64,000 nucleotides of DNA from Melioribacteraceae bacterium (GTDB taxonomy: Bacteria > Bacteroidota > Ignavibacteria > Ignavibacteriales > Melioribacteraceae): contig WYBN01000012.1 in the NCBI GenBank assembly GCA_011525875.1, positions 248,001 to 312,000 on the forward strand. Reading direction: 5' to 3'. The notes beneath the pieces were generated by a model that was not told where the DNA came from, searched no databases, and saw only the letters and a list, made by a program, of their open reading frames with translations. Shown here one piece after another: positions 14,436-57,365 of the stretch (position 1 is its first letter; each line of letters opens with the position of its first letter). A program made the position numbers and the translations under genes.

Positions 14436-14466
14436 AACCCGCTCTATAATGGGCGGGTTTTTTTTT
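14436..14466 (+). terminator. Rho-independent terminator of the pnt operon
   Basis: Stem AACCCGC (14436-14442) pairs with GCGGGTT (14453-14459) across a 10-base loop, and a run of T follows to 14466. It lies 22 bases after the pntB stop and separates the pnt genes from the secreted-protein run that starts at 14642. Confidence 0.9.
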
Positions 14467-14641: not shown

Positions 14642-16093
14642 ATGAAACATTTTTTACTATCAATCATATCATTAACTCTGATGTTATTTTCTACAATCAA
14701 AATTTCAGCACAAAATCCATGGCAGTACGTTGGCGAAATCAAATTCCCGGATCCAGACAGCACGGTGTTTCCTCTTCTCGGAACCTTGGATGATGAAATG
14801 AGGCTTTGGGTCATTTCATCCAAAGCTCAGGCTCCGAGAGCAAGAAATGCAGTTTATTACGCTGATTTTGGCGATACTGTATTTACAAAATTTATTGATT
14901 TTGACGAGAACGGAGACTCCGATACACTTGCCGGTAATATAGGCGCATTGCGAGGCATTGCTTCACTTGATAAGGATTTATTTTTAAGTTTCACAATACC
15001 TTATCCAAAATACAGTCCAAACACGGTCTCAGGAATGTATGTGTATTCCAACATGGATACAAACCAAGTTTTCAAAATCGGTTATCAGATTGGAATCAGC
15101 GGTACAGGCGGTTATGGCTCTTTCAATCATGGTATTGATATTACGCCCGATTCAATTATTTTTGCGGGCATTTCATTTGGAACAACCTTTAGGGTTTTTA
15201 ATTTCAGTAATAGTATGAAATATTCAGTAGTATCACCATACGGATTTTGGATCCCGGGAAATCCAAGCAATCCCGGAGAGAATAATTTTAGCAATCAAAC
15301 TGAACCGGGCGGGCTTGAATCTCAAGGAAAAGATTTACCGCGCGATGTAGCATTAGTTCCAGGCATGGATTACACAAATTCGGATAGTTATTTCTTTACT
15401 TCAAGAAACTCGCTTGCCATTGATCAGCTGACTGGCGGGATTGCAATTTGGCAGGGTGGAACAACTTTAAGCGCCCTTCAATATTCTCCGGCGAGAGTTG
15501 AAGATTTCGACGGTTACCTCGCTTTAATTGATTTGTGGCCTTGCGGCATCGACGTTGATGTAAACGGTATTCTCTGGGTTGCTGGCATTGACTCAACAAG
15601 AAGGTGGGTAAAGGGATTTGAACTCGACGGTATAAATGCGGAAGCGGTATATGACCTTCCGAGCTCCAATTCAATGGATTTTGCAGATCCTTCAGGAGCG
15701 CCGATGGGAGGTCCATCAGACGTTGTGCTTTCTTCCGATGCAGGGTATGCTTTTGTTATTGATGCTTATGCAAAACGCGCTTGGGTGTTCGATAATTTAA
15801 CCGTTGGTGTTAATGAAGAAAAACTGCTGCGCGATTTTGATCTTGAGCAGAATTATCCTAATCCGTTCAATCCAAGCACGAGAATAAAATTTACTCTTGC
15901 AAAAGATTCAAATGTGAAGCTGGTTGTAACAGATATTTTGGGCAGAGAAGTTGCAGCACTCGTTAATGAAAGATTGGGAGCCGGACAGCACACACATATT
16001 TTTAACGCCAGTAAGTTATCAAGCGGTGTTTACTTATACACATTAAGCGCCGGCGGCGTTCGGTTAAGCAGAAAAATGCTTTTGGTTAAATAG
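14642..16093 (+). CDS. Secreted beta-propeller-like protein with T9SS C-terminal sorting domain
   Basis: A 483-residue exported protein: ATG with GAGGGG upstream, a signal peptide ending near SAQ (residue 23), and a C-terminal type IX sorting domain (NYPNPFNPSTRIKFTL, then DILGREV, then LSSGVYLYTL, ending SRKMLLVK). The middle has repeated short strands with motifs such as LRGIASLDKDLFLSF, HGIDITPDSIIFAG, CGIDVDVNGILWVAGI and SDVVLSSDAGYAFVID. These resemble NHL/WD-type propeller blades, and no catalytic motif is seen. It probably sits at the cell surface or is released. It starts the ten-gene run ending at 30052, 30 bases ahead of the TonB-dependent receptor, so it may help bind the substrate. 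The exact function is unknown. Confidence 0.8.
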   Translation: MKHFLLSIISLTLMLFSTIKISAQNPWQYVGEIKFPDPDSTVFPLLGTLDDEMRLWVISSKAQAPRARNAVYYADFGDTVFTKFIDFDENGDSDTLAGNIGALRGIASLDKDLFLSFTIPYPKYSPNTVSGMYVYSNMDTNQVFKIGYQIGISGTGGYGSFNHGIDITPDSIIFAGISFGTTFRVFNFSNSMKYSVVSPYGFWIPGNPSNPGENNFSNQTEPGGLESQGKDLPRDVALVPGMDYTNSDSYFFTSRNSLAIDQLTGGIAIWQGGTTLSALQYSPARVEDFDGYLALIDLWPCGIDVDVNGILWVAGIDSTRRWVKGFELDGINAEAVYDLPSSNSMDFADPSGAPMGGPSDVVLSSDAGYAFVIDAYAKRAWVFDNLTVGVNEEKLLRDFDLEQNYPNPFNPSTRIKFTLAKDSNVKLVVTDILGREVAALVNERLGAGQHTHIFNASKLSSGVYLYTLSAGGVRLSRKMLLVK

Positions 16094-16123
16094 TTTTATT
16101 ATAATTCGATAGAGAATTTTTTT

Positions 16124-19120
16124 ATGCGGAATTATATTCTTGCTGCGCATAATATAGTATTTATACTTTGTTATTTTATGATTATTACTGTCAACTCTTT
16201 TGCCCAAAACGGTAAAATTGTAGGAAAGGTAAATGATGCGGCAACTAATGAAAGTTTAATCGGCGTAAACGTTTTTGTGCAAGGTACAAATTTCGGCGCA
16301 GCGACTGATATCGAAGGAGAATATATTATTTTAAATGTCCCGCCCGGCACTTATAATATCGTTGCGAGTATGGTGGGTTATTCAAAAGTTACAAAGACAA
16401 ATGTTGTTATTTACATCGACAGAACTACAGAATTGAACTTTTCATTAACCGATGAATCCGTTCAGATGGGCGAGGTTGTGATTGTTGCGGAAAAACCTGC
16501 CGTTGTTAAAGACCGGACTTCGACAGCTACAAATATTGAAAGTCAGCAGATTACAGCCGCTCCAATTGAAGGGCTCAGAGGCGCGATGGATTTATCGGCA
16601 GGATTTCAGAAAAGCGAGACGGGAAATTATTCGGTTCGCGGTTCTGGTTCTTACGAAGTCAGTTTTCAAGTGAACGGCGTTGAGCAGATTAATTCTAACA
16701 CATCTGCCCCGGGAACTTTCGGCACGGACAAAGCAAACAATTCTTGGAAGTATGATGTTAATCCCTTAGGTGTTCAACAGGTTCAATTGATTACCGGCGG
16801 ATTTTCTGCCGAGTATGGAAATGCTCAAGCCGGGGTTGTTAAGGTTGTGCTTAAGGAAGGCGCGCCGCGCTTCACGGGTGAGTTTAGGATGGAATATAGA
16901 CCTTCTGGACAGTATCATTACGGAGATTACATTTATTCAACCAACAACTACGAATGGAAGAAATGGGGCGACCTCAACAGTTGGATGGCGAATAAAGAAA
17001 GTATTATCCGTGAGCTGAAACTCGATGTGCGCTATGCCGGAATTAAAACTTCTGATCCTTCAAAATATGATTCCTTAGTAAATCATGAGATTGCTTGGGC
17101 TCATTCAATGTGGGTGAAGAATCATAAACCAGGGGATGATAATGTTTTGGGAGTTTATGACTATCGGCAGTATTCGTACCAGCGATATTTATTCGGGTTT
17201 GGCGGACCTCTGGGTGCTGACCCTAATCTACTCAAGTTTTATATTTCAGGGGAATACAAAAGTAATCCGACTAGACTGCCAACTCCAGAAAAAGTTCAGG
17301 TACTTCAGAATTACATATTGAATTTGACGTATCAACCTGTAACAAACCATAAAATAAAATATATGGGAAGTTATCAAAGCTATATCGGTGGGATCTGGTC
17401 GGGCTCTGAAGATATTAGATGGTCGGGTCTGGCATTCACGCCGCCTGGTGTTTCCACTAAATATATTGTTACAATAGATCCGGTTCGAGAAGAACAGACA
17501 ATTGCCCAAACAATCAATTGGGTTTATACATACAGTAATACTTCTTTCTTCGATTTTACTATTTCACATCAGAAGGAGAGATATGAACTTCCATATAGAT
17601 ATTTAGCCGGTTACGGTTTGGAGGTTGATAGAGCTGACAGTTCAAATGATATGAGTGGAACTGTGCTCAGGGAGGGAAGCTGGTGGGAAAAAGATTACTT
17701 CCGTGCTCCTTTCAGTTTCAGTACAAATTATTATCAAGACAATCGGTCAGAAAATATTGCACTTAAACTCGATTATACCAATCAGATTATTCCAACAAAT
17801 TTATTAAAAGCCGGCTTTAGATTTACATACTGGGATTTATTAAACAACGGTGTCAATTCTAGTTTTCAGGCTAACAGCTATGTAGCAAGAAACGGATTTG
17901 CTGATTATTATACTGCCTATCCTATTAACATTGCTTTTTATGTGCAGGATAAAATGGAATATGAGGGAATGATTGCTAATATTGGTCTAAGAGCAGAAGC
18001 CTATAACTTCCAAACTTCCGTTCCTATTGATTTGTTTAACGTATTGTACCCCGGCACAGATGGACCAGGAAGATTAGGTTCAACTGAAACTCAAAATTCT
18101 AAATGGAAATATATTTTTTTGCCGCGCTTAGGAATTTCATTCCCCATCGGAGAAAGCACTGCTTTCAGATTTCAATACGGACATTTTGCCTCAATGCCGA
18201 TATTCAGTCAGGCTTTGTCCCGAAAGACTTGGGTTGGGTGGCAGGGAATTGGCAACCCAAATCTTGATCCGAAAAAAACTATTAATTATGAATTCGGCTT
18301 ACAGCAGCAGATAGACGATAATCACAGACTTGACGTGGTGCTATATTATAATGATAGAACAACTCAAATCGGGCAGCAGAATATAGCCTCGTTTACTGGA
18401 AGTCGAAATCAATTTGCTGGTTTTTCAAGCGATAATTCTCCGCTCTACTATTATTGGTCCTTTGCTAATAATTCATTTGGGTCTACCGTAGGGTTCGAAG
18501 CAACTTTCGAAACGATAAGTATTCGGAACTGGTCTTACCGGTTAAGTTACAGTCTTTCTCAGACAACAGCTGGAAATTTTGGACCTTCAATTATTTATCC
18601 AGATGATACTCGGGGATACTCGACAAGGGATTATACCGGTGAGTTTATAGCATCCTGGGATAGGACTCATAATTTCCGCGCATTAATTCAATACTTCACC
18701 GAAAATGACGGCGGGTTTGAGCTGTTAGGATTTAAACCGTTTGAGAATTCCGTATTCAGTTTGAGTTATATTGCGCAATCCGGTGTCCCATTTACTTATA
18801 TAACCGATTTTGATCTAAAAGATATCCGTTATAACAGAAGATATCCTATTGAAACTAGAGTCGACGCAAATTTTTCGAAGGATATTTATTTTGGCGATAT
18901 TAAACTTCTTGTTGGTATCAGAGTTATGAATTTATTCGATAATAAATGGCTGACACCTATGTCAACAAACGACGATATAGGTCTCTGGGTTGAGGACGGT
19001 ATTACCATTGATAAACCGGGAAATGATCCCCTTCGGTTGAGTCATGTTGTCGCACCTTATCGAACATACAGTAATATACCGAGACAAATATTTTTTACAT
19101 TAGGTGTTGGTATTCAGTAA
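16124..19120 (+). CDS. TonB-dependent outer-membrane receptor with carboxypeptidase-like N-terminal domain
   Basis: A 998-residue receptor for energised uptake across the outer membrane. After a signal peptide (ending NSFAQ) comes a carboxypeptidase-like regulatory domain (GKIVGKVNDAATNESLIGVN through PPGTYNIVASMVGYSK). A plug domain follows with NYSVRGSGSYEVSFQVNGV and ITGGFSAEYGNAQAGVV, then a 22-strand-type barrel ending in RQIFFTLGVGI. This is the layout of SusC/Oar-like receptors, but no SusD lipoprotein gene is adjacent; the next gene is a large secreted protein. The substrate cannot be read from the sequence. The neighbouring GHL10 hydrolases and NagX-like gene suggest an amino-sugar glycan. 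Confidence 0.92.
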   Translation: MRNYILAAHNIVFILCYFMIITVNSFAQNGKIVGKVNDAATNESLIGVNVFVQGTNFGAATDIEGEYIILNVPPGTYNIVASMVGYSKVTKTNVVIYIDRTTELNFSLTDESVQMGEVVIVAEKPAVVKDRTSTATNIESQQITAAPIEGLRGAMDLSAGFQKSETGNYSVRGSGSYEVSFQVNGVEQINSNTSAPGTFGTDKANNSWKYDVNPLGVQQVQLITGGFSAEYGNAQAGVVKVVLKEGAPRFTGEFRMEYRPSGQYHYGDYIYSTNNYEWKKWGDLNSWMANKESIIRELKLDVRYAGIKTSDPSKYDSLVNHEIAWAHSMWVKNHKPGDDNVLGVYDYRQYSYQRYLFGFGGPLGADPNLLKFYISGEYKSNPTRLPTPEKVQVLQNYILNLTYQPVTNHKIKYMGSYQSYIGGIWSGSEDIRWSGLAFTPPGVSTKYIVTIDPVREEQTIAQTINWVYTYSNTSFFDFTISHQKERYELPYRYLAGYGLEVDRADSSNDMSGTVLREGSWWEKDYFRAPFSFSTNYYQDNRSENIALKLDYTNQIIPTNLLKAGFRFTYWDLLNNGVNSSFQANSYVARNGFADYYTAYPINIAFYVQDKMEYEGMIANIGLRAEAYNFQTSVPIDLFNVLYPGTDGPGRLGSTETQNSKWKYIFLPRLGISFPIGESTAFRFQYGHFASMPIFSQALSRKTWVGWQGIGNPNLDPKKTINYEFGLQQQIDDNHRLDVVLYYNDRTTQIGQQNIASFTGSRNQFAGFSSDNSPLYYYWSFANNSFGSTVGFEATFETISIRNWSYRLSYSLSQTTAGNFGPSIIYPDDTRGYSTRDYTGEFIASWDRTHNFRALIQYFTENDGGFELLGFKPFENSVFSLSYIAQSGVPFTYITDFDLKDIRYNRRYPIETRVDANFSKDIYFGDIKLLVGIRVMNLFDNKWLTPMSTNDDIGLWVEDGITIDKPGNDPLRLSHVVAPYRTYSNIPRQIFFTLGVGIQ

Positions 19121-19134
19121 TCACAAAAATAATT

Positions 19135-21120
19135 ATGATATTAAAGAAAACTTTTATACTTATAATAACTTTCTCAATTCTTTCTGCCGGTTTGTTATTT
19201 GCCCAGATAGAATCTTCTTCCATAATACTGAACCGCGGTAAGCTGTGGCAGACAATTAGTTTTGGAAAGGTTGGTCCCTCTTTCAGTAACTGGAGCACAC
19301 GCGGAATCGGTTTGGACTGGCCTGGATTTGACCCAAGCTTAATAAGCGAAAACATTGGAGGTTCTGCCTCACATTTAGTGAGCGGTGGAATTTATATTGG
19401 CACAAAATGGCGTCCAGACTCGATCCTTTCAGTCGAAGACTGGTCGCTTTATGCAGGTTCAATTGCTGAAGGCGCGGCAGCAAAGTATAGAATAGTTAGC
19501 CACAAACATCTCTATCCCGACGGCGCAAATCACTGGCTTCAAACCAACCCGGATGCAGGGGAAGAAGTGGTAGAATCTATATGGGAATACAACATTAATT
19601 ATGAAGATGAATTTCAAATCAAACGAATGATCCCAATCCGTGTAAAGCGCACTACTCATCAATGGAGCGGTTCTAAACTCGACGAAAATTACATTATTCA
19701 TGAATATGTTATCAAAAATATCTCTCAAGAAATTAAATCTGCTGCTCTGCCGGATAGATTTGTTGCAGATTCGCTGTATGATTTTTATGTTTTGATTAAT
19801 TACGGGATTCACTGTAATTCCCGCTCTTGGGGAGTATTATTTCCATCTCTTTCGCCTGGTGCAAGAAATACGTGGTTCAATTATAATTCTTCGCGAAAGA
19901 TTATATTTGGGAGAGCAGCTGATTTTCCTGAAACACCGGCGACAAATGAAGACCTTGGTTTAGCTCTGTCAATGGGAAGAAATATTAATGGCGTGCCAAG
20001 CGGAGAGTACTTAGCGCCAGCATATGCTGGCTTCAAATTGCTTTATTCTTCGATGGATAAGAACGGAAAGGAAACTAATGTAACACAACAGGGATGGTCA
20101 GCGGCGTCAAACTCAATCGATCTCAGCGGTCCATTTACAAACATTGGATCGCTCGAAGCACAGTACTCTGTTATGGAAGATATCAGGCTTGCGGCAAATT
20201 TTGTCGAGAGTTGGACTGATACATTGTTCATGAGAAAATCCAGAATGTGGTCGATGATGAAAATAGGTCCATATGATATTACGCCCGGCGATTCAATAGT
20301 ATTTGCAATGGCGGAAATTGTTGACGGTGTGGATTACGAGAAAGCGATAAATCCAAAATCTTTTTCTGCTTCCACAATAAATATAGAAAGCCGAAATATT
20401 TTTAATTCTACCGCAGATAGAGCGCAATCTACATATAACAATGGATTGAGGCACTCTAACCCTCCAGCCGCACCAAAGTTCAGCGTAGATTATAATAGAG
20501 AAAACGAGGATGTAGCTGTAATTTTAAATTGGGGAACCGATGCTGAAAACATCATCGACCCGGATAAAGGAATTGTTGATTTAACAGGGTATATTATTTA
20601 CAGATCTGAATATTTACCTATCGGCCCTTGGACGGCAATTGATACTGTGCTTGCAGGGGATATAAATTTCCTCGAAAATTTTACTTATAAATATTCTGAC
20701 GAAAACGTTGACATAGGCAAAGGTTATTATTATTCATTAACTTCTTTTGACGATGACGGACTTGAAACCTCTATCTTCGCCAATAGACTTCAAACGCCCT
20801 TTATAGCAACTCTTGCGCCAAAATCAAGCCTTGATGAAATTCTCGTAGTGCCAAATCCCTTTGTTATTGGGAAGGGTTTTTCACAGCCGGGTGAACAAGA
20901 CAATATTCAATTTGTAAATATCCCCAATCCATGCACAATAAGAATTTTTACCGTGAGGGGTGATCTTGTAAAAACAATTAAGGTTGACCAGGGTGCTGGA
21001 GCAATTGTTTCGTGGGATCAGGTTACAGATTTTGGACAGTTCGTTGAAAGCGGTATATACATTTTCCATGTGGAAGCACTCGGCAAACAAAAAATAGGCA
21101 AGTTTGCAATTGTCAGATAA
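19135..21120 (+). CDS. Large secreted protein with FnIII-like and FlgD/sorting-like C-terminal domain
   Basis: A 661-residue protein with a signal peptide (ending LLFAQ). Residues about 25-440 are of unknown fold, rich in aromatic residues and Gly. A FnIII-like section follows at about 440-550 (ILNWGTDAENI, LTGYIIYRSEYLPIGPWTAI). The C-terminal domain has ILVVPNPFVIGKGF, then NPCTIRIFTVRGDLVKTI, then VESGIYIFHVEA, ending QKIGKFAIVR. This looks like a diverged FlgD/sorting-tail Ig domain, with the core NPFNPST replaced by NPFVIGK. It follows the TonB-dependent receptor by 14 bases, where SusD-type partners usually stand, but shows no lipobox and no SusD/RagB helical repeats. A surface partner of the receptor is an inference; I do not recognise the large N-terminal domain. 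Confidence 0.7.
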   Translation: MILKKTFILIITFSILSAGLLFAQIESSSIILNRGKLWQTISFGKVGPSFSNWSTRGIGLDWPGFDPSLISENIGGSASHLVSGGIYIGTKWRPDSILSVEDWSLYAGSIAEGAAAKYRIVSHKHLYPDGANHWLQTNPDAGEEVVESIWEYNINYEDEFQIKRMIPIRVKRTTHQWSGSKLDENYIIHEYVIKNISQEIKSAALPDRFVADSLYDFYVLINYGIHCNSRSWGVLFPSLSPGARNTWFNYNSSRKIIFGRAADFPETPATNEDLGLALSMGRNINGVPSGEYLAPAYAGFKLLYSSMDKNGKETNVTQQGWSAASNSIDLSGPFTNIGSLEAQYSVMEDIRLAANFVESWTDTLFMRKSRMWSMMKIGPYDITPGDSIVFAMAEIVDGVDYEKAINPKSFSASTINIESRNIFNSTADRAQSTYNNGLRHSNPPAAPKFSVDYNRENEDVAVILNWGTDAENIIDPDKGIVDLTGYIIYRSEYLPIGPWTAIDTVLAGDINFLENFTYKYSDENVDIGKGYYYSLTSFDDDGLETSIFANRLQTPFIATLAPKSSLDEILVVPNPFVIGKGFSQPGEQDNIQFVNIPNPCTIRIFTVRGDLVKTIKVDQGAGAIVSWDQVTDFGQFVESGIYIFHVEALGKQKIGKFAIVR

Positions 21121-21146
21121 TTTACTTTAACGTTTTAATTATTGAT

Positions 21147-22088
21147 ATGAAAAATAAAATTTTATTGATCTGTATATTATTCGCTTTCTCCATGTCATTT
21201 GCACAGGATTTTAAAAAAACCGCAACTGCCGGCTTTGTATTTCTTGAAATACCAACTAATGCAAGAACTCAATCTCTCGGCGAAGCCTCAATTGCACTGT
21301 CAGATCAGAACTCATCGGGTATTTTTGTTAATCCAGCATCACTCGGATATACAAAATTAACTCATTCTTTTTCGGCTTCCTATGCCCCTTGGTTAGCTGA
21401 AATAAACAACTATTCGGCAAGTTATTCACTTAAATCGGATTATGGTGTTTTCGGAGTAGGTTTAATTTTATTCGACTATGGCACGATGCCGAGAACTGTG
21501 ATTGCGAGCGGACAAAAAGTTTATGAGGTTATTGGTTCTTTCAAAGCCAGCTCATTAGCGTTAGGGGTGACTTATTCCAAAATGCTTACGGATAAGTTTT
21601 CTTTCGGCACAACTATCAAATATGTTAATGAAAAAATCGATATATACTCGGCTAATAATATTTTATTCGATGGAGGAGTGTTATATTATACCGGTTTAGG
21701 TTCATTACGTTTAGCGGCAACCATTCAGAATTTTGGTGTGGATGCAAAATTCCTAAACGATGAATTCAAAATGCCTGCAACCCTACGATTAGGTCTCGCT
21801 TCGGAAGTCTACGGTGGTTTTGATGATCATTACAGAATTACTTTAACTGCCGAAGCCACACACGCTTCCGATGCTGATGAGCGAATTAATTTCGGCTGCG
21901 AGCTTTCATGGAAAAATATTGTGACCTTACGCGCCGGGTATAAGTTCTTTTATGATGAAGAAGCCTTTAGTGCGGGCATAGGATTGAATCCAGGGTTGGA
22001 CATGCCTGTAATCATTGATTTTGCCTATGCTGACTTTGGAAGACTCGGCAGTATTACCAGGATTACTTTGCAGTTGGGATTAAACTAA
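21147..22088 (+). CDS. PorV/PorQ-family outer-membrane protein
   Basis: A 313-residue outer-membrane barrel with signal peptide (ending SFAQ). It has the typical family start: AGFVFLEIPTNARTQSLGEA, followed by ALSDQNSSGIFVNPASLGY and a run of amphipathic strands ending in ITLQLGLN. PorV carries T9SS cargo to the attachment complex, and PorQ-like paralogues act in surface display. In this lineage many paralogues sit beside receptor genes, so this one may serve local cargo (three sorting-tail proteins are in the same run) rather than being the general shuttle. It stands 26 bases after the preceding gene. Confidence 0.82.
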   Translation: MKNKILLICILFAFSMSFAQDFKKTATAGFVFLEIPTNARTQSLGEASIALSDQNSSGIFVNPASLGYTKLTHSFSASYAPWLAEINNYSASYSLKSDYGVFGVGLILFDYGTMPRTVIASGQKVYEVIGSFKASSLALGVTYSKMLTDKFSFGTTIKYVNEKIDIYSANNILFDGGVLYYTGLGSLRLAATIQNFGVDAKFLNDEFKMPATLRLGLASEVYGGFDDHYRITLTAEATHASDADERINFGCELSWKNIVTLRAGYKFFYDEEAFSAGIGLNPGLDMPVIIDFAYADFGRLGSITRITLQLGLN

Positions 22089-22115
22089 CTTCTTTAATAA
22101 CAGCAAAGAATAAAT

Positions 22116-22838
22116 ATGCTAGTAAAAATATCTATAGCAGCGGTTATAATTTCGATATCAGCCTTGTTAAATGCTCAAGTAAGATCTGTCGAGATATTTT
22201 CGGATTATTCTATATCAGGTGCAAAAAAACTTAATGTGAATAAAGCTGATGCTATTGGCGGCGGTGTAAAAATTAAGTTCTACATCTTTGATGACATCAG
22301 CTTAAACATAAGCGGAGGCTATAAACTGTATTCGGTTAATCAAGAAGATCAATTAAACACTTACGGCTGGCGTTTTTGGACTGACAGATATTATAACAAG
22401 ATTGTATCCGACCTCCGGGCTGATCCGAATTTATCCGTTGATATCGGAAGCATACAGAAAATGGATTTGATTCCAGTGATCTTTTCTTTTGATTATAATA
22501 TCCGTATAACAGAAGATTTTGGATTATATCCGGAAATCGGGGGGGGTGTATATTTTTATACAAGAAGAATGTATGCGGTAGAAAACTGGAGTAAATATTT
22601 TCCCCACGAGGATTATACGTTTAAATATAGCTTTAGAAATTTTGCCCCGGCTAAAAAAGGGAATCCTTTCTTCTATTCTACAGCTGTGAATTTATATTAT
22701 AATGTATGGAAATTTGTTGATATTTCGGTGGGAGCTTATTATTCGGGCGTTTTGAAAACGAAAAACAAATTCGGTTTTAATAATTTTATATTTGAAAATG
22801 AAACTACAGTAAAACTCGGAATTATTTTAAAGTACTGA
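22116..22838 (+). CDS. Small outer-membrane beta-barrel protein
   Basis: A 240-residue protein with a signal peptide (ending LLNAQ), alternating amphipathic strands and many aromatic residues. It closes with FENETTVKLGIILKY, the aromatic C-terminal residue typical of outer-membrane barrels. Pieces such as DISLNISGGYKLY and GLYPEIGGGVYFYTRR fit an OmpA-like or general barrel of about eight to ten strands. No enzymatic motif is seen. It lies 2 bases before another barrel gene of the same size, with which it may act as a pair in the uptake locus. Function unknown. Confidence 0.7.
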   Translation: MLVKISIAAVIISISALLNAQVRSVEIFSDYSISGAKKLNVNKADAIGGGVKIKFYIFDDISLNISGGYKLYSVNQEDQLNTYGWRFWTDRYYNKIVSDLRADPNLSVDIGSIQKMDLIPVIFSFDYNIRITEDFGLYPEIGGGVYFYTRRMYAVENWSKYFPHEDYTFKYSFRNFAPAKKGNPFFYSTAVNLYYNVWKFVDISVGAYYSGVLKTKNKFGFNNFIFENETTVKLGIILKY

Positions 22839-22840
22839 AC

Positions 22841-23551
22841 ATGAAGAAGAAATTATTTATTGCAGCAGTATGCGTTGTTTTTGCATTCAACTTGAATGCG
22901 CAGAATTCGGATTATATTTTGGGTTCTGATGCAAGTTACTATCTGCCGCTCGGTACGCTTGCAGAAAGATTTAACGGAACCCTTGGCGTTTCATTTTTTT
23001 TCGGAAAATCGGTATCAGAAAGATGGACATGGATTGGCCGGGCTGAATACTTTAAATTGTCTAAAGAAAATCGAGATAAACTTATTAAGAAAGTTGAAAT
23101 AGAAGTTGACGGCAGCGAAAGGATCTATCTATTCCCGCTCGATAAACTTGAGATGGAATTTGAGGCAGCAGGTATTTCAGCAGAAGCTAAGTACAAATAT
23201 TTTAGTGCTGGACCTTTCGAGAGTAATCTGTTTTTTTCATTCGGTTTTTTTTACTGGGATAATTACAGAAGTTCGTATAATGATACTCTCAAAAATGATA
23301 TAAATAACGACGGGAATTTGGTTGTAGTGGAAGTTATAGATGTTCCTGCATTAAGACTGAATGATTGGAATGGGGCTATTAGTGTTGGGATTGATGCAGG
23401 CGTAGTGTTGTTCGATCCACTACGGCTGTATATAAATGCAAATTATAAATTAATAATAGGGGAGCTTTGGCCTACTCTGAGGCTTGGAATTGAAAATGTA
23501 AGCGGGCTTCAATTTATAAATTTGAGAGCTGGTTTAAGTTTACGGCTTTGA
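22841..23551 (+). CDS. Small outer-membrane beta-barrel protein
   Basis: A 236-residue secreted protein with signal peptide (ending NLNAQ) and strand-rich sequence, for example LGSDASYYLPLGTLAERF, LGVSFFFGKSVSERWTWIG and SNLFFSFGFFYWDNYRSS. It ends INLRAGLSLRL, consistent with a terminal barrel strand. It is coupled to the preceding barrel gene (2-base gap). There is no recognisable family motif. It is followed by a 70-base gap, the longest in this run, before the three GHL10 genes, so an internal promoter there is possible. Confidence 0.68.
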   Translation: MKKKLFIAAVCVVFAFNLNAQNSDYILGSDASYYLPLGTLAERFNGTLGVSFFFGKSVSERWTWIGRAEYFKLSKENRDKLIKKVEIEVDGSERIYLFPLDKLEMEFEAAGISAEAKYKYFSAGPFESNLFFSFGFFYWDNYRSSYNDTLKNDINNDGNLVVVEVIDVPALRLNDWNGAISVGIDAGVVLFDPLRLYINANYKLIIGELWPTLRLGIENVSGLQFINLRAGLSLRL

Positions 23552-23621
23552 GAAGAAACTCTTCTATTGCCGGCATCTGTTAAGAATTCTACTCTCTAAA
23601 CGTACTCAATTCGAATTCAAT

Positions 23622-24749
23622 ATGAAAAAAATAATTCTTTTTACATTCTTACTTTTTATTTCAGCTTCGTGCACCAGCCTCAAAAAACCTGCCGAAGCAG
23701 TTCGCGGATTGTGGCTTACTAATGTTGACAGCGATGTGTTGAACTCTAAGCAAAATATTTCCGATGCCGTCAGACTATGCAGTGAGATTGGAATCAACAC
23801 AATCTTTATTGTTACCTGGAATAAAGCTATGACGACTTATCCAAGTAAGATCATGAAGGAATTAACTGGCGTTGAAATAGATACGCTTTTTACAGGTCGT
23901 GATCCTTTGAAAGAATTAATTGAAGAAGCTCACAAAAAAGATATTAAAGTAATTGCATGGTTCGAATTCGGATTCTCATCTTCCTATAATGAAAACGGCG
24001 GAATTATTTTAAAGAATAAACCCGAATGGGCGGCTGTTGATAACAAGGGAGATTTGGTAAAAAAGAACGGCTTCGAATGGATGAACGGATTTCATCCCGA
24101 GGTTCAGGAATTTATTCTTTCATTAATAATGGAAGTTGTTGAAAACTATAATATAGACGGTATTCAAGGCGATGACAGATTACCTGCAATGCCTGTCGAA
24201 GCAGGGTATGATGAATATACAACTGAATTATACAAGAAAGATCATCACGGCAGCAACCCTCCCGCCTACTTTAAGGACTACGAGTGGGTTCGTTGGAGAG
24301 TGGCTTTGATGAACGAATACATGGAAAGGATTTATAAAACCGTAAAAGCTTTCAATCCTGAAATAATTATTTCTATGGCTCCGAGTATTTATCCGTGGAG
24401 TGTTGAAGAATATCTACAGGATTGGCCTGCTTGGGTTAGTAAAGGCTTGGTTGAAATAATAATTCCGCAAGTATACAGGCATAATATAGATTCCTATAAA
24501 AAAGAGCTAAACAGCATTATAAAAAATCAAATATTGCCTAATGACATTGATAAATTTTATCCTGGAATACTACTTAAAGTCGGCGATTATTATCCTTCGA
24601 TAGAATTTCTCAATCAAATGATTAAAACAAACCGTGAAAATGGTTTTAACGGGGAGGTTTTTTTCTTTTATGAAGGGATAAAAAAATACCCAGAATATTT
24701 CCAGAGTTTGTATCAAGATAAAGTTATATTTCCAAAAATTAAAGAATAG
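23622..24749 (+). CDS. GHL10-family glycan hydrolase, lipoprotein (tandem copy 1)
   Basis: A 375-residue member of the GHL10/PF02638 family, whose studied member DigH (YddW) of E. coli cleaves denuded peptidoglycan glycans. A lipobox (FISASCTS) predicts a lipoprotein. The TIM-barrel motifs are AVRGLWLTNVDSDVL, VIAWFEFGFSSSYNENGG, GFHPEVQEFILSLI, the likely active-site strand IDGIQGDDRLPAMPVEAGYD, IIISMAPSIYPW and VFFFYEGIKKYP. Unlike the next two copies it stops after the catalytic domain, with no carbohydrate-binding or sorting domain. It is the first of three adjacent paralogues, suggesting duplication followed by different placement: lipid-anchored here, exported through T9SS in the others. 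Confidence 0.88.
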   Translation: MKKIILFTFLLFISASCTSLKKPAEAVRGLWLTNVDSDVLNSKQNISDAVRLCSEIGINTIFIVTWNKAMTTYPSKIMKELTGVEIDTLFTGRDPLKELIEEAHKKDIKVIAWFEFGFSSSYNENGGIILKNKPEWAAVDNKGDLVKKNGFEWMNGFHPEVQEFILSLIMEVVENYNIDGIQGDDRLPAMPVEAGYDEYTTELYKKDHHGSNPPAYFKDYEWVRWRVALMNEYMERIYKTVKAFNPEIIISMAPSIYPWSVEEYLQDWPAWVSKGLVEIIIPQVYRHNIDSYKKELNSIIKNQILPNDIDKFYPGILLKVGDYYPSIEFLNQMIKTNRENGFNGEVFFFYEGIKKYPEYFQSLYQDKVIFPKIKE

Positions 24750-24761
24750 GAAGAATAGATC

Positions 24762-26681
24762 TTGCGGTCAATAAAAATTTCTTTAGCTATAGTCATCAGT
24801 CTTTGTTTGTCAACAACTGCTCAGCAAAAAAATGAATTTAGAGGAGTGTGGCTTACAAACGTTGACAGCCGCGTTCTCGCCACCGATGATAATATAGTAG
24901 AAGCAATGAATTTCCTCGCATCAATTGGGATTAATGTTGTTTTTCCTGTGGTTTATAACAAAGGATACACACTCTATCCCAGTGCTGTAATGGATAGCCT
25001 ATTTGGGCAAAAAGTGATACCGGATGTTTCCTTTCAGAATCGTGATTTTTTGGAAAGAACAATTATAGAAGCTCATCGTAACGGAATTGAAGTAATTCCA
25101 TGGTTCGAATTCGGATTTTCGAGCTCCTACAGTTTGAATGGAGGGCATATAATTCAAAAATTTCCACATTGGGCGTTGAAAAACTCACAGGGGAATTTGG
25201 TAGTTAAAAACGGATTCGATTGGCTTTCCGGAATTCATCCGGAAGTTCAGGATTATATATTAGACCTTATTCTTGAGGTAATTGAAAACTACGATGTTGA
25301 CGGCATTCAAGGTGACGACCGGCTTCCGGCAATGCCTGTGGAAGGCGGATATGAAGAATACACTGTAGAACTTTATAAATCTGAACACGACGGCAGCTCG
25401 CCGCCTACTCACTTCTCTAATTCGGCTTGGATGAAGTGGCGGGCGGATAAACTGACTGATTATTTCCTAAAAGTTAAAGATTCAGTAAAAAGCAGAGGAG
25501 ATTATTTGATAATTTCTTCGTCACCCACTCCTTATTATTGGGGTTACAATCAATATCTGCAAGATTCAAAAGCATGGTCTCAACAAAGCATTGCAGAAAA
25601 TCTTATCCCGCAGCTCTATCAGTACAATATAAATGATTTCAATTATGCATTAAATTCAACATGGAATGACGTCGGTCAATATTCACCAAATAATTTTTAT
25701 GCTGGTATCTTAATGAATATAGGGACGGGAGCAAACGAATACGTCATAAGCGAGAATTTATTAACATCAAAATTAAACGCCGTTAGGAATAAGAGCGTTA
25801 AAGGAGAATGCTTTTTTTTCTATGAAGGGCTGAGAAAGAATAATAATCAATTGGGGGAATTTCTTGCCTCAGAATTTTATTCTGAAGCTGCCGCTTTGCC
25901 TTATAGGGATGGAAAAGTATTTAGACCTAAAGCAAAAATTGTCAATGAAGATTCTGTTTCGGTTAATTTGATTGGCGAATGGCAAGAATATTCCATGAAA
26001 GGCTTTGAAGGGAAAATTCTTCGCACTAATGAATCTAATTCATATACATCAATCGAGTATAAATTTGACATTTCTGATGAAGCGTTTTATGACGTTTATA
26101 CATTTCGAACACCCAATACACCGTGGACTAAAGCCGCTAACTATACGATCTACCACAAAGAAGATTCAACAAATGTTATGGTAGATCAAAGTGATTTATC
26201 TCTGAAAGGATGGCACAAGCTTGGCACAGCATTTTTGACTCCTGGTTATAAAACAGTAGTCAAGCTTGATAATAAATGGCTTGAAGACGGAAAGTTTTTA
26301 GTCGCCGATGCTGTTATGCTTATGATAAACCGTAAACTTTCTCCAAATGTAGTCGTTTCCGTGAAAGAAAATAAGACCGGAAGTAAATCGCCCGATAATT
26401 TTTTTTTGAGTCAAAATTATCCCAATCCTTTTAACCCTTCAACCAAGATAAGATTTTCAGTTGCAGACAGATTAAAACAATCATCCTCCGAGATTGGACA
26501 TGCAATTCTGAGAATTTACGACGTTTTAGGCAGAGAGATTGGAACGCTGCTTAACGAACCTCTTAAAACAGGCGAGTACGAAATTATATTTAATGCGTCG
26601 GGATTGCCGAGCGGAGTATATTTCTACAACTTCAAATACGGAAATTTTTCTCAAACAAGAAAAATGTTGTTGATTCGTTAA
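24762..26681 (+). CDS. GHL10-family glycan hydrolase with golvesin-like domain and T9SS tail (tandem copy 2)
   Basis: A 639-residue paralogue of the preceding gene. TTG start at 24762 with AGGAAG upstream, and a signal peptide ending STTAQ. The GHL10 barrel (about 22-375) keeps the motifs EFRGVWLTNVDSRVL, VIPWFEFGFSSSYSLNGG, SGIHPEVQDYI and VDGIQGDDRLPAMPVEGGY. A golvesin C-terminal-like domain follows at about 395-530 (YDVYTFRTPNTPW, VDQSDLSLKGWHKLG, FLVADAVMLMI), a fold often attached to cell-wall enzymes. The T9SS sorting domain is at the end (NYPNPFNPSTKIRFSV, YDVLGREIG, LPSGVYFYNF, TRKMLLIR). It is predicted to work outside the cell on glycan strands. Confidence 0.9.
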   Translation: MRSIKISLAIVISLCLSTTAQQKNEFRGVWLTNVDSRVLATDDNIVEAMNFLASIGINVVFPVVYNKGYTLYPSAVMDSLFGQKVIPDVSFQNRDFLERTIIEAHRNGIEVIPWFEFGFSSSYSLNGGHIIQKFPHWALKNSQGNLVVKNGFDWLSGIHPEVQDYILDLILEVIENYDVDGIQGDDRLPAMPVEGGYEEYTVELYKSEHDGSSPPTHFSNSAWMKWRADKLTDYFLKVKDSVKSRGDYLIISSSPTPYYWGYNQYLQDSKAWSQQSIAENLIPQLYQYNINDFNYALNSTWNDVGQYSPNNFYAGILMNIGTGANEYVISENLLTSKLNAVRNKSVKGECFFFYEGLRKNNNQLGEFLASEFYSEAAALPYRDGKVFRPKAKIVNEDSVSVNLIGEWQEYSMKGFEGKILRTNESNSYTSIEYKFDISDEAFYDVYTFRTPNTPWTKAANYTIYHKEDSTNVMVDQSDLSLKGWHKLGTAFLTPGYKTVVKLDNKWLEDGKFLVADAVMLMINRKLSPNVVVSVKENKTGSKSPDNFFLSQNYPNPFNPSTKIRFSVADRLKQSSSEIGHAILRIYDVLGREIGTLLNEPLKTGEYEIIFNASGLPSGVYFYNFKYGNFSQTRKMLLIR

Positions 26682-26682
26682 A

Positions 26683-28617
26683 ATGAAAAGTGTAATCCTC
26701 ATTGTTATATTTTTTTTAGCTCAGATTAACGCACAGCACTTGGAAGAGTTTAGAGCAGTGAAACTGACAAATGTTGACAGCAACGTTTTATTTACCGATC
26801 AGAATATTGCCGATGCGATGGATTATCTTGCTTCAAAAGGGATTAATGTTGTACTTCCGGTTATTTGGAATGGCGCCTGGACGCTTTATCCTAGTCAGAC
26901 AATGTTGACATTATTTGGCAGGGAAATACATTCTAATTTTACAGGCCGCGATCCTTTACGGCGTGTCATTATTGAAGCACACCGAAACGGTATTGAAGTT
27001 TATCCTTGGTTTGAATACGGTTTTGCAGCTTGGTACAGCGGCGGGACTCCGCCTTTTGGCGGTCACATACTTCAGAAATTTCCCGATTGGGCGGCACGTG
27101 ATAGTGATGGGAACATCGCTTCAGAAAACGGTTTCGATTGGATGTCGCCGATTCATCCGGAAGTGCAAGATTTTATGAACTCCCTTATTCAAGAAGTAAT
27201 TGCAAACTATGATGTTGATGGCGTTGAATTTTCTGATAGAATACCTGCAATGCCTATAAAAGGAGGGTATGAACCCTATACGGTTCAACTCTACAAAGAT
27301 GAAAACAACGGGCAGGAGCCGCCAACCAGTATGGGCAGCTCCTCCTGGAAACGGTGGCGTGCCGACAAACTAAATTTATGGTTCAGCGGCGTTAGAGAAA
27401 TTGTTAAAAGCTACGACGAAAACATCTTTGTTTCTTCCAGTCCAAGTGTTTATCCATGGGCATATGATAATTATCTTCAGGATGCGAAAACTTGGATAGA
27501 GGAGGGGATAGCCGACCATTTTATACCCCAGCTTTATAGATACGATTATAATTCATACTTATATGAACTGAATTCTGCAGTCAACCTTGCAGGTCAAAAT
27601 AAGGATAAACTTTTTGCGGGCATATTAATGAATATCGGAGTCGGTACAAATGAGTATGTAATTGATACTAAGTACCTACTTGACGCCATTGCAGCGAACC
27701 GTGCCAGAGGAGTTATGGGCGAAGCTTATTTTTATTATGAGGGATTCAAAAAAATGAACGGCTTCCTTGCAGATACACTCGCAGCTACAGTATATTCTCA
27801 ACCTGCAATTGTTCCCGATAGAGGAGGTAATCCGCGTAGAATTAAAGCAAAAATTATAAACGAGGATGATAACGATGCCCTTAAAACCGGTAATTGGGAA
27901 TATTACCAGATGAAAGGATTTAACGGAGGCATTCTCAGAACATCTGATAGAAATAGTTATACAAGCATTACTTATGGCTTTATTGTGCCAGTTAAAGCCT
28001 ACTACGATATTTACATCTACTCGACGCCGAACACAACATGGACAAAAAATGCAAAATATTCCCTCAGGGGTGTGGATGTTTTATTTAACGTGAATTATGA
28101 TCAGAGCGATTTAAAATCAAAAGGATGGGTTTATCTGGGGACTGTTGAGGCAGACTCGGGTTATCAAACACTACTTTCTTTAGATAATTCTAATCTTGAA
28201 GAAGGAAAGTATCTTGTCGCCGATGCCGCAATGATCATGATAAATCGAAAGAAGTCGCCCGATGTTATAATTACTTCTGTTCTTGATAAGAAAAAAACTG
28301 ATGGTTTTCCTGCTGATTTCAGCTTATCACAGAATTATCCGAATCCTTTCAATCCTATAACGAAGATTAAATATTCAGTGCCTTCTATCAATAATGAAAA
28401 TAATTCGGATAAAACAAAGAATACTTTAACACAGAAAGTCAGCTTGATAGTTTATGATATTCTTGGAAGAGAAATTGCCGAGCTTGTAAACGAGAATAAA
28501 ATTCCCGGAATATACGAGGTTGAGTTTGACGCTTCGAATTTAACAAGCGGAGTTTATATTTATACTCTGAAGAATGGTAGAACAATTCAATCCCGGAAAA
28601 TGATTTTAATAAAATAA
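26683..28617 (+). CDS. GHL10-family glycan hydrolase with golvesin-like domain and T9SS tail (tandem copy 3)
   Basis: A 644-residue paralogue starting one base after copy 2, with signal peptide (ending QINAQ), GHL10 barrel, golvesin-like domain (YDIYIYSTPNTTW, YDQSDLKSKGWVYLG, YLVADAAMIMI) and T9SS tail (NYPNPFNPITKIKYSV, YDILGREIAEL, LTSGVYIYTL, SRKMILIK). It differs from the other copies in the probable active-site strand: VDGVEFSDRIPAMPIKGGYE instead of VDGIQGDDRLPAMPVE. Its VYPWFEYGFAAWYSGGTPPF stretch is also longer. Changed substrate preference is plausible; loss of activity cannot be ruled out. It is followed 28 bases later by the NagX-like gene. Confidence 0.9.
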   Translation: MKSVILIVIFFLAQINAQHLEEFRAVKLTNVDSNVLFTDQNIADAMDYLASKGINVVLPVIWNGAWTLYPSQTMLTLFGREIHSNFTGRDPLRRVIIEAHRNGIEVYPWFEYGFAAWYSGGTPPFGGHILQKFPDWAARDSDGNIASENGFDWMSPIHPEVQDFMNSLIQEVIANYDVDGVEFSDRIPAMPIKGGYEPYTVQLYKDENNGQEPPTSMGSSSWKRWRADKLNLWFSGVREIVKSYDENIFVSSSPSVYPWAYDNYLQDAKTWIEEGIADHFIPQLYRYDYNSYLYELNSAVNLAGQNKDKLFAGILMNIGVGTNEYVIDTKYLLDAIAANRARGVMGEAYFYYEGFKKMNGFLADTLAATVYSQPAIVPDRGGNPRRIKAKIINEDDNDALKTGNWEYYQMKGFNGGILRTSDRNSYTSITYGFIVPVKAYYDIYIYSTPNTTWTKNAKYSLRGVDVLFNVNYDQSDLKSKGWVYLGTVEADSGYQTLLSLDNSNLEEGKYLVADAAMIMINRKKSPDVIITSVLDKKKTDGFPADFSLSQNYPNPFNPITKIKYSVPSINNENNSDKTKNTLTQKVSLIVYDILGREIAELVNENKIPGIYEVEFDASNLTSGVYIYTLKNGRTIQSRKMILIK

Positions 28618-28645
28618 ATTATAAATTAGACTGGAGATTATAATC

Positions 28646-30052
28646 ATTAAAAGAGCTGATGCACTTGATGCTTTAAGAGGAATTGCGATTCTTCTAATGA
28701 TACTTTCCGGCAGCATTCCTTATGCCGGTATGCTGCCTGGATGGATGTATCATGCACAGCTTCCGCCTCCCGCGCATACATTCCATCCAACAGTTCCTGG
28801 CTTAACCTGGGTTGACCTTGTTTTCCCGTTTTTTTTATTTGCTATGGGTGCAGCATTTCCATTTGCACTTAATAAAAAACTTTTAAGAGGAATATCAACC
28901 ATCAAAATATCTATACAGATTATAATTCGAGGGGTTATTTTAGCAGGTTTTGCCATCTACATTCAGCACTTCAAACCGTATGCGCTAAGTTCAACCCCCG
29001 AAACGATTCACTGGATTATCGGAATTGCGGGTTTTATTTTACTCTTCCCAATTCTTCTAAGACTGCCTTCTTCGATTAATCCAGTTGTAAGATACGCAAT
29101 TAAGATTAGCGGCCTGGCGGCAGCTGCGCTTATTCTCTCGCATATTGAATATCAAAATGGTACTGGGTTCACGTTAGAAAGAAGCGATATAATTATTCTT
29201 GTATTGGCGAATGTTGCCGTCGCTGGTTCTTTGATCTGGCTTTTTACTCAAAATAATATGCTATTGAGAATCGGGATACTTGGATTTCTTGTTGCATTGC
29301 GGCTCACTCATTCAGTTGAAGGTTCTTGGAATCAATGGCTTTGGAATTATTCGCCATTTCCATGGCTGTATAAGCTGTATTACTTGCAGTACTTGTTTAT
29401 AGTTATTCCGGGCACGGTTGTAGGCGATCTTATTTATAAGTGGATGAATACTGAGCAGCATAGTGAGAAAGATTCTCCGGAACTTCATTTCAGAGTAAAA
29501 ATAATTTTCACATTGATGATTAGCTTCATAATTATTAATCTGATTACACTTTATACAAGACAATTAGAAACAGCCGTTTTACTAAACATTTTATATATCG
29601 TTTTAGGTCATATTTTATTTAATGGAGTTTCAGGTGAAACTTTAATCCTGTTAAAAAAAATGTTCAGATGGGGCAGTTATTGGCTTCTGCTCGGTTTATT
29701 CTTTGAAGCGTTTGAAGGCGGAATTAAAAAAGATCAATCGACGTTGAGTTATTATTTTGTTGCAACCGGATTGGCAATATTCTCCTATATCGCACTCTCC
29801 ATTATAACAGATTATTTTCGCAAGAAAAGTTTTTTGAAGACAATAATTCAAAATGGACAAAACCCAATGATCGCATATATTGCCGGTAGTAATTTAATAA
29901 TGCCTGTCCTTACGTTAACCGGTTTGACTGCCGCATTAAATTATTTACTTGTTAATCCATGGCTGGGATTTTTAAAGGGCTGTATCATCACATTGATGGT
30001 CGCTCTCGTTACAAAGTATTTTGCAGTTAAAAAATTATTCTGGCGCACGTAA
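28646..30052 (+). CDS. NagX-like (DUF5009/COG4299) membrane acetyltransferase, apparent ATT start
   Basis: An inner-membrane protein of about 468 residues with around ten helices, related to heparan-alpha-glucosaminide N-acetyltransferase. Family hallmarks are the N-terminal RADALDALRGIAILLMIL, FHPTVPGLTWVDLVFPFFLF (a short insert before WVDLVFPFF), and the late QNGQNPMIAYIAGSNL. The first ATG (28697) would remove the conserved LDALRG. The frame is open upstream to a stop at 28622 and holds only ATT, ATA, ATC and CTG as candidates; ATT at 28646 lies 9 bases after GGAG (28633-28636). Proteobacterial NagX genes stand in N-acetylglucosamine-use loci, which suits the preceding glycan hydrolases. 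It is the last gene of the run. Confidence 0.85.
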   Translation: MKRADALDALRGIAILLMILSGSIPYAGMLPGWMYHAQLPPPAHTFHPTVPGLTWVDLVFPFFLFAMGAAFPFALNKKLLRGISTIKISIQIIIRGVILAGFAIYIQHFKPYALSSTPETIHWIIGIAGFILLFPILLRLPSSINPVVRYAIKISGLAAAALILSHIEYQNGTGFTLERSDIIILVLANVAVAGSLIWLFTQNNMLLRIGILGFLVALRLTHSVEGSWNQWLWNYSPFPWLYKLYYLQYLFIVIPGTVVGDLIYKWMNTEQHSEKDSPELHFRVKIIFTLMISFIIINLITLYTRQLETAVLLNILYIVLGHILFNGVSGETLILLKKMFRWGSYWLLLGLFFEAFEGGIKKDQSTLSYYFVATGLAIFSYIALSIITDYFRKKSFLKTIIQNGQNPMIAYIAGSNLIMPVLTLTGLTAALNYLLVNPWLGFLKGCIITLMVALVTKYFAVKKLFWRT

Positions 30053-39219: not shown

Positions 39220-40743
39220 ATGAAAAATAACTCCGATAAAGTGAGCGTAATTCAGAAATTATTAGACTGGGTTGAACGCTCAGGCAATAAACTGCCTCAG
39301 CCAGTAACTCTTTTCCTAATATTAATCGCTATAGTTCTTATCGCTTCATGGATTGCGTCCTTTTTTAATATCACCGCAGTTCATCCTGGAACAAAGCATG
39401 AAATTTCTGTAGTAAACCTTTTAAACGAAGAGGGTATTCAGAGGATATTCACTCAAATGGTAACGGTATTTACTTCATTCCCTCCGCTTGGGTTGGTGCT
39501 CGTTGTCATGCTTGGAATTGGAGTGGCTGAACGATCCGGACTAATCGCAGTATCTTTGAAAGCATTTGTATCCTCCGTTCCTTCAAAGTTAATAACATTT
39601 TCTGTAGTTACTGCAGGTATGCTTTCAAGTCTTGCCGCCGATGCTGGTTATGTAGTTTTAATTCCTTTAGGAGCGGCAATATTTTATGGAATGGGTAGAC
39701 ACCCAATTGCTGGTTTAGCCGCTGCGTTTGCCGGAGTTTCAGGCGGATTCGGAGCAAATTTGTTTTTGACCAGCCTTGATCCTCTTCTTGCTGCATTTAC
39801 CACCCCCGCAGCGCAGATAATCGATCCAAATTACATTGTAGACGCACCGGCAAATTGGTATTTCATGGCAGCTTCCGTACCGCTTGTCGGCATTGCCGGA
39901 ACTTACGTTACCGAAAAAGTTCTTGAACCGAGGCTTGGTAAATATAAACCGGAAGGTGATATCGAAGAAGCAAACAATGAAATAACTGACCTCGAAAGAA
40001 AAGGATTAAAATGGGCAGGGATTTCTGTCCTAATTTCATTAGTCATAATTGGATTTATGTTTATCCCAGAATGGGGAGTTTTAAGAGGCGAGGATGGAAG
40101 TTTTAATCCTTTCTTTACAAGTATTGTTCCTCTAATGCTTTTTTTATTTTTTATTCCCGGTTTGATTTACGGAATCATAACTAAATCGGTTAAATCAGAT
40201 AAACAAGTTGCAAGCATGACAGCAGAATCAATGTCGAGTATGGGCGGGTATATAGTTCTGGCATTTGCTGCGGCTCAGTTCGTCGCATATTTCAACTGGT
40301 CGAATCTCGGACTTATTTTAGCAATTAACGGTGCAGATGGATTAAAATCAATTGGTTTTACTGGCGTACCGCTGCTTGTTGCTTTCATAATTGTTTCCTC
40401 GATAATAAATATTTTGATTGGAAGCGCCTCTGCAAAGTGGGCGATAATGGCTCCCATCTTTGTGCCAATGTTAATGCTAATGGGCTATTCCCCGGAATTG
40501 ACACAGGCTGCTTATAGAGTCGGGGATTCTTATACCAATATTTTAACTCCTCTATTACCGTATTTCCCGCTGGTAATCGTTTTTGCTCAGAAATACGTTA
40601 AGAATATAGGTATTGGTACAATAATTTCTTCAATGCTTCCGTTTGCTATTGTTTTTGCGATTGTAAGGATTATTATGTTTGTTATCTGGGTAGCGCTCGG
40701 AATCCCTGTTGGACCCGACGCTCCTTTGTATTATACGCCATAA
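39220..40743 (+). CDS. AbgT-family transporter
   Basis: A 507-residue inner-membrane protein with about eleven helices. Family features are the N-terminal LDWVERSGNKLPQPVTLFLI, GVAERSGLIAVSLKAF, AGMLSSLAADAGYVVLIPLG, SGGFGANLFLTSLDPLLAAF and the C-terminal SAKWAIMAPIFVPMLMLMGY with RVGDSYTNILTPLLPYFPLV. AbgT proteins import p-aminobenzoyl-glutamate or export sulfonamides by proton coupling. Which of these applies here is open, although a folE gene lies nearby. A clear ribosome binding site AAGGTGAGATC precedes the ATG. Confidence 0.93.
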   Translation: MKNNSDKVSVIQKLLDWVERSGNKLPQPVTLFLILIAIVLIASWIASFFNITAVHPGTKHEISVVNLLNEEGIQRIFTQMVTVFTSFPPLGLVLVVMLGIGVAERSGLIAVSLKAFVSSVPSKLITFSVVTAGMLSSLAADAGYVVLIPLGAAIFYGMGRHPIAGLAAAFAGVSGGFGANLFLTSLDPLLAAFTTPAAQIIDPNYIVDAPANWYFMAASVPLVGIAGTYVTEKVLEPRLGKYKPEGDIEEANNEITDLERKGLKWAGISVLISLVIIGFMFIPEWGVLRGEDGSFNPFFTSIVPLMLFLFFIPGLIYGIITKSVKSDKQVASMTAESMSSMGGYIVLAFAAAQFVAYFNWSNLGLILAINGADGLKSIGFTGVPLLVAFIIVSSIINILIGSASAKWAIMAPIFVPMLMLMGYSPELTQAAYRVGDSYTNILTPLLPYFPLVIVFAQKYVKNIGIGTIISSMLPFAIVFAIVRIIMFVIWVALGIPVGPDAPLYYTP

Positions 40744-40800
40744 ATTATTATAAAAGTTTTTAATTAAATATTAACTAGTACCGGATGGGTAAAGAGCTGG

Positions 40801-53104: not shown

Positions 53105-53166
53105 CTCTTCGAATGTTGATCGAAATAAAACAAAATTGTATAAAGAATTTACCGGGGATAGGTTTT

Positions 53167-57246: not shown

Positions 57247-57365
57247 TATTAAGCCTGAAATAAAAATTTGCAGAAATATTTTTTGATGCAAACATATTGA
57301 AAAATATCCCAAATATCATTCTTGTTTTGAAACGTGAGTGTGATTAAGATTCGAGCCCCGAAGTT

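Follow-up and report, generated by a model that had tools for sequence, protein, structure and literature searches.

A conserved SusD-less locus with three GHL10 genes in a Melioribacteraceae bacterium, a candidate operon for TonB-dependent glycan uptake

Introduction

What does a bacterium import through ten closely packed genes that place a TonB-dependent receptor beside three GHL10 proteins? Such a locus lies in a 64,000-nucleotide stretch of DNA (contig WYBN01000012.1, positions 248,001 to 312,000) from a Melioribacteraceae bacterium; the whole stretch was analyzed and is called the window here. The SusCD pair is the textbook polymer-import route of these bacteria. The original prediction, made from the DNA letters alone, described the ten genes as a SusD-less uptake system for peptidoglycan-derived or chitin-like glycans. 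We find that glycan uptake by the locus is likely and that an amino-sugar substrate is possible, while peptidoglycan or chitin as the substrate is unproven. With confidence slightly above even, we read the locus as a T9SS-assisted, TonB-dependent uptake operon for an extracellular glycan, built on a SusD-less module and possibly involving an amino sugar that is acetylated by a DUF5009 protein in the periplasm.

Results and Discussion

The open reading frame list places all ten genes on the + strand between 14642 and 30052, nearly abutting as had been predicted, with intergenic gaps from g1 to g10 of 30, 14, 26, 27, 2, 70, 12, 1, and 79 bases. The last of these gaps becomes ~19 to 28 bases once the g10 start is moved upstream of 28697. 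Scans with Pfam and NCBIfam agreed with the predicted domains of the ten genes, and Pfam additionally revealed a Golvesin_C domain in g8 and g9 that was absent from the original prediction. The pntB gene lies upstream, followed by a terminator-like hairpin that would probably mark the upstream boundary of the locus; inside the locus, no comparable + strand intergenic hairpin with a T run was detected. The frequency of promoter-like sites did not exceed that in shuffled sequence. The features considered here are as follows.

14436 to 14459, + strand: terminator-like hairpin between pntB and g1, 9 bp then seven T, by consensus match only
g1, 14642 to 16093, + strand: secreted beta-propeller with T9SS type A tail (Por_Secre_tail, 36.4 bits; cut-off, 27)
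g2, 16124 to 19120, + strand: TonB-dependent receptor (plug/barrel) with N-terminal CarbopepD_reg
g3, 19135 to 21120, + strand: 661-aa secreted protein with N-terminal beta-sandwich (supersandwich-like), FN3-like domain, and PorZ/T9SS-like C-terminal tail
g4, 21147 to 22088, + strand: PorV/PorQ-family outer-membrane barrel (NF033709, 178.8 bits; cut-off, 90)
g5, 22116 to 22838, + strand: small predicted outer-membrane barrel without a family match
g6, 22841 to 23551, + strand: small predicted outer-membrane barrel without a family match; like g5, zero Pfam or NCBIfam matches
g7, 23622 to 24749, + strand: GHL10 catalytic domain alone (PF02638, E 1.2e-64); possible lipoprotein (..ISASC)
g8, 24762 to 26681, + strand: GHL10, Golvesin_C, and T9SS tail; TTG start
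g9, 26683 to 28617, + strand: GHL10, Golvesin_C, and T9SS tail; FSDRIPAM replaces GDDRLPAM
g10, 28637 to 30052, + strand: DUF5009 (HGSNAT/NagX-like) transmembrane acyltransferase candidate (PF16401, E 1.2e-77)
54859 to 57312, - strand: NagB-like plus PIG-L-like protein, 817 aa (NCBIfam NF002557, below cut-off; no Pfam match at 1e-3)

Gene order was then compared among relatives. Orthologues of g3, defined by at least 45% identity, were present in 36 of the 146 genomes of the order that were searched, counting the host genome itself, a 2.28-Mb MAG that is 81% complete. The neighborhoods of g3 orthologues and 78 named loci were annotated using profiles built from the locus, and adjacency was counted in Ignavibacteriota loci for testable cases only, that is, on contigs that were long enough. 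The order was retained for g2-g3 (41/41), g3-g4 (42/42), g4-g5 (40/40), g5-g6 (34/35), g6-g7 (28/31), and g7-g8 (24/27), and less often for g1-g2 (23/34), g8-g9 (7/20), and g8 or g9 followed by g10 (6/20). In line with the claim of one conserved locus, g2 to g8 stay together and form its core; g1, g9, and g10 are accessory members. The original prediction had named a loss of shared neighbors in relatives as refuting it, and for g2 to g8 no such loss was seen. In other phyla, g5 also directly follows g4 in 14 of 14 loci. Neomarinimicrobiota, Calditrichota, KSB1, and a record labeled Caldisericaceae keep g2-g3-g4-g5, with GHL10 genes nearby in rearranged positions, and Kryptoniota keep g1 to g4 without GHL10 genes or the small barrels. 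Upstream of g1, or of the locus as such, several relatives and one Neomarinimicrobiota locus carry a divergently oriented pair of genes encoding ~720-aa and 491-aa proteins (L041, L042, L080, L085, L088, and L134), a pair that is absent from the window. The larger protein is of the hydantoinase/oxoprolinase type (719 aa; scanned in L041), and the 491-aa (scanned in L035) and 421-aa neighbors matched no family in Pfam or NCBIfam scans.

Genes g2 to g4 recur well beyond this locus. The trio of a TonB receptor, a g3-like tail protein, and a PorV-family barrel is found as three consecutive genes in seven places of the host MAG and in rearranged form in an eighth, and most of the roughly one dozen PorV-family genes of this genome lie beside TonB receptors. 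Two tandem trios are present in L220 (G000:C5:1-20000), the first followed by a 993-aa DigH/Cwp19-type GHL10 protein; L221 contains a tailed CBM20/48 protein, and L224 contains a tailed S51 and an M14 peptidase. More distant g3 relatives, at 24 to 30% identity, show the same receptor/g3-like/PorV order with GH38, DUF4185, a GH94-like protein, and a sugar ABC transporter. Because the trio is repeated in the host genome and in relatives beside differing enzymes, it is a general module, reused with differing surface enzymes. In L222 (G000:C9:194000-212000), the trio precedes a T9SS-tailed N-acetylmuramoyl-L-alanine amidase (Amidase_2), a Golvesin_C protein, and an S13 D-Ala-D-Ala carboxypeptidase; this locus is a candidate for peptidoglycan scavenging, and a better one than the locus in the window.

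The locus resembles SusC/SusD polysaccharide utilization loci in that a TonB receptor gene adjoins genes for a surface protein and surface glycosidases in one operon. In contrast to those loci, it has no SusD. The SusD Pfam families matched none of the ten locus genes, and SusD-like_3, the one such family searched genome-wide, was without a match in the 81%-complete MAG. Together with the domains of g2, this bears out the prediction of a TonB-dependent, SusD-less system. Receptor g2 scored 62.1 bits against the SusC/RagA profile TIGR04056, below the cut-off of 368. Its partner g3 has a supersandwich-like, FN3, and T9SS-tail build, and a PorV-family barrel invariably comes next. On profile scores, that barrel, g4, is assigned to the PorV/PorQ family as neither the PorV nor the PorQ equivalog (82.6 bits with a cut-off of 250 and 124.4 bits with a cut-off of 220, respectively).

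Large g3-like proteins matched no family in Pfam and NCBIfam scans. The structure model of g3 is confident (pLDDT, 91); it opens with a large beta domain at the N terminus, continues with an FN3-like domain, and ends in a PorZ-like tail. Its fold matches are weak and partial (TM ~0.27 of the query) and comprise the beta-supersandwich region of GH94-type phosphorylases and related enzymes, FN3 tandems, and PorZ. The modeled fold would suit a carbohydrate-binding surface protein, and g3 is a candidate surface binding partner of g2, a SusD analogue by position.

To the preferred reading, g10 would add the acetylation step. The g10 frame is open back to 28625 and encodes the KRADALDALRG start found in orthologues, with GGAG at 28633. 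This start has no ATG, GTG, or TTG; ATT/ATC codons follow GGAG at 28637 to 28646, and the coding region thus begins before the ATG at 28697, through a rare start codon or because of a misassembly. The g10 protein resembles the NagX/HGSNAT transmembrane acetyltransferases in a profile match to HGSNAT over the VDLVFP region (E 1.2e-5). This relationship was reached only with the g10 profile; a phmmer search of g10 against the PDB returned nothing. Unlike them, g10 matches PF16401, and no other Pfam family, rather than PF07786. The position beside the HGSNAT match (residue 51), which would correspond to the catalytic His297 of HGSNAT, is His in the window and Asn in nine aligned orthologues. This difference speaks against the preferred reading, although H36, some residues upstream, is invariant in the alignment.

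The distribution of DUF5009 was determined across the 146 genomes. A strong match (>210 bits) was present in 36 of them, namely, in 34 of the 36 with the g3 locus and in 2 of the 110 without it (Fisher P value, 1.9e-28, with genomes taken as independent and kinship ignored). Counted by genus, the values were 23/24 and 2/41 (P value, 3e-14, kinship again ignored). All four exceptions are in genomes that are at most 85% complete. The DUF5009 gene and the locus lie within 14 kb of each other in seven genomes and 1.3 Mb apart in one single-contig genome; the remaining genomes have them on separate contigs, many of which are short. The DUF5009 protein is thus a dedicated functional partner of the locus, and to this extent the predicted NagX-like acetyltransferase stands, while its acetyltransferase function is inferred only. 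Five bacteria require relatives of NagX to use glucosamine, which these proteins were proposed to acetylate across the membrane (PMC9007349), and DUF5009 proteins are intermixed with HGSNAT in published trees (PMC12423673).

In a second reading, the uptake machine is as described above and the glycan contains no amino sugar; DUF5009 would then acetylate a hydroxyl group or transport the sugar, as MurT does with MurNAc in Tannerella. In its favor, NagX is a distant relative of MurT (PMC9007349), a function has not been proven experimentally for any DUF5009 protein (PMC12423673), and DogH, which also belongs to GHL10, was reported to be active on starch (PMC9967864). In addition, the genes flanking the locus in relatives, which include GH94, FAD_oxidored, GxGYxYP, and DUF5018, are not specific to amino sugars. 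DUF5009 may be a transporter or an O-acyltransferase, which would count against the acetylated amino sugar of the preferred reading. However, HGSNAT and NagX, the closest characterized relatives of g10, work on glucosamine, and we consider the second reading rather unlikely.

Turning to the enzymes, g7, g8, and g9 match PF02638 with 219, 195, and 185 bits (cut-off, 27.9; E 1e-64 to 3e-54) and share this family and its TIM barrel with DigH of E. coli and Cwp19 of C. difficile. A tree was built from 57 GHL10 domains, including DigH, Cwp19, and 21 other sampled GHL10 domains of the order. A 100/100 branch separated all locus GHL10s from DigH, Cwp19, and these 21 others, among which is the fourth GHL10 of the host genome. 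The locus proteins possess WFE(F/Y)GF where the DigH/Cwp19 group mostly has HAWFNPYR, and GDDRLPAM or FSDRIPAM where that group mostly has FDDYF. Residues Arg132 and Asp196-Tyr197 have been proposed for the active site of Cwp19 (PMC5765458); the locus GHL10s differ at the equivalents of Arg132 and Tyr197 and have acquired a Glu that is almost invariant (Glu115 of g7). Asp185 of g7 is conserved as well. By sequence, they form a divergent clade of their own, with putative catalytic residues. Within it, g7, g8, and g9 each represent a lineage of their own. Other phyla have g7-type and g9-type copies as well, and the triplication is therefore old.

These results weaken the original version of the function, namely, capture and breakdown of chitin or of glycan strands from peptidoglycan by means of DigH-like enzymes. 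Both DigH (PMC12288456) and Cwp19 (PMC6016235) act on peptidoglycan, the solved structure most closely related to g7 is that of Cwp19, and MurQ is moderately enriched in genomes with the locus (34/36, versus 61/110 without it). However, the separate clade and the altered motifs mean that this activity is not simply transferable, and the inference of peptidoglycan as the substrate is therefore weak. MurQ was not found in the 81%-complete host genome, and the enzymes expected of such a system are located elsewhere, the tailed amidase and S13 carboxypeptidase in L222 and the DigH-type GHL10 in L220. Overall, we regard this version as improbable.

Other candidate clues to the substrate were examined and set aside. 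GH20 is enriched to a similar extent as MurQ (33/36 versus 62/110), yet both are common everywhere. A GH94 gene lies directly upstream of g2 in two loci; it fits the uptake reading, but its approximately equal scores with cellobiose and chitobiose phosphorylases make it uninformative about the substrate. The NagB/PIG-L fusion, which had been predicted to finish the pathway from 25 kb away, does exist but showed no association with the locus (13/36 genomes with it versus 57/110 without it; P value, 0.13) and is widespread in the order independently of it. Not among the clues set aside, and in favor of the uptake reading, an SSF symporter adjoins three loci, and a NagC/Mlc-like ROK regulator is found in one Calditrichota locus.

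We next consider export and the cell surface. The tails of g1, g8, and g9 scored above cut-off in Pfam and NCBIfam, and the T9SS sortase PorU is encoded in the host genome (961 bits), adjoining a PorV-family gene. With a sorting domain in each protein and a sortase in the genome, g1, g8, and g9 qualify as T9SS type A cargo, in agreement with the predicted T9SS export signals of two hydrolases, g8 and g9. The third hydrolase, g7, was predicted to be lipid anchored; it is a possible lipoprotein, but the anchor is not kept, as several orthologues have no cysteine at this position. The g1 model (pLDDT, 81) consists of a beta-propeller and a tail, with PorZ (best) and NHL domains as the closest folds, and the tail match of g3 is weak (TIGR04183, 16.8 bits with a cut-off of 23; PorZ tail match, 27 bits). 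The locus thereby resembles the T9SS components PorV, PorQ, and PorZ in g4, g1, and g3, all three of which, unlike PorV, PorQ, and PorZ proper, fall below equivalog cut-offs. A role outside nutrition, in which the locus builds the envelope or turns over a surface layer or surface glycan of the cell itself, would fit these PorZ-like features, the PorV paralogue g4, and the Kryptoniota loci with g1 to g4 alone. This role is improbable: import is implied by the TonB receptor, the many copies of the trio are accompanied by varied hydrolases, and a close locus in only 36 of 146 genomes argues against a core envelope function.

In the uptake reading that we prefer, g8 and g9 (and g1) would leave the cell through the type IX secretion system and cut the extracellular glycan, with the Golvesin_C domains of g8 and g9 probably gripping the polymer. 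Beside the PorV-family barrel g4, g3 would be retained at the surface and hand oligomers to g2, which would pump them into the periplasm, where g7 may carry on cleavage. Using cytosolic acetyl-CoA, g10 would then transfer acetyl onto the periplasmic sugar, most simply onto an amino sugar that has been released and has its amino group free, and the acetylated sugar would thereby become acceptable to an inner-membrane transporter.

A broader proposal, which we advance tentatively and hold to be possible rather than probable, is that the trio is a stand-alone outer-membrane import machine of Ignavibacteriota, Kryptoniota, Neomarinimicrobiota, Calditrichota, and Rhodothermia, present in many copies per genome with exchangeable enzymes. 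In it, a PorV paralogue would anchor a T9SS-exported binding protein on the receptor, and the machine would match SusCD in function while differing from it in origin. Melioribacter roseus, probably from the same family as the host MAG, has one SusCDE operon (PMC3534657). Searches of open-licence papers with TonB/PorV/SusD-type terms found no description of the trio for these lineages. In FCB phyla that are common in the environment, many members may rely on this three-part module rather than on SusCD, which, if true, would explain feeding where SusD-based surveys find few utilization loci. The locus also offers a single physiological setting in which both the divergent GHL10 clade and the DUF5009 family can be tested.

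Two further regions of the window were noted. T9SS tails are normally C terminal. An open reading frame at 53101 to 54816 (+ strand) encodes an M19 membrane dipeptidase with a T9SS-tail-like domain at residues 109 to 182, N terminal to the peptidase domain, and is possibly the product of fused genes or a frameshift. At 39220 to 41823 (+ strand), an AbgT-type transporter gene adjoins that of a GH130 phosphorylase, 57 bases apart.
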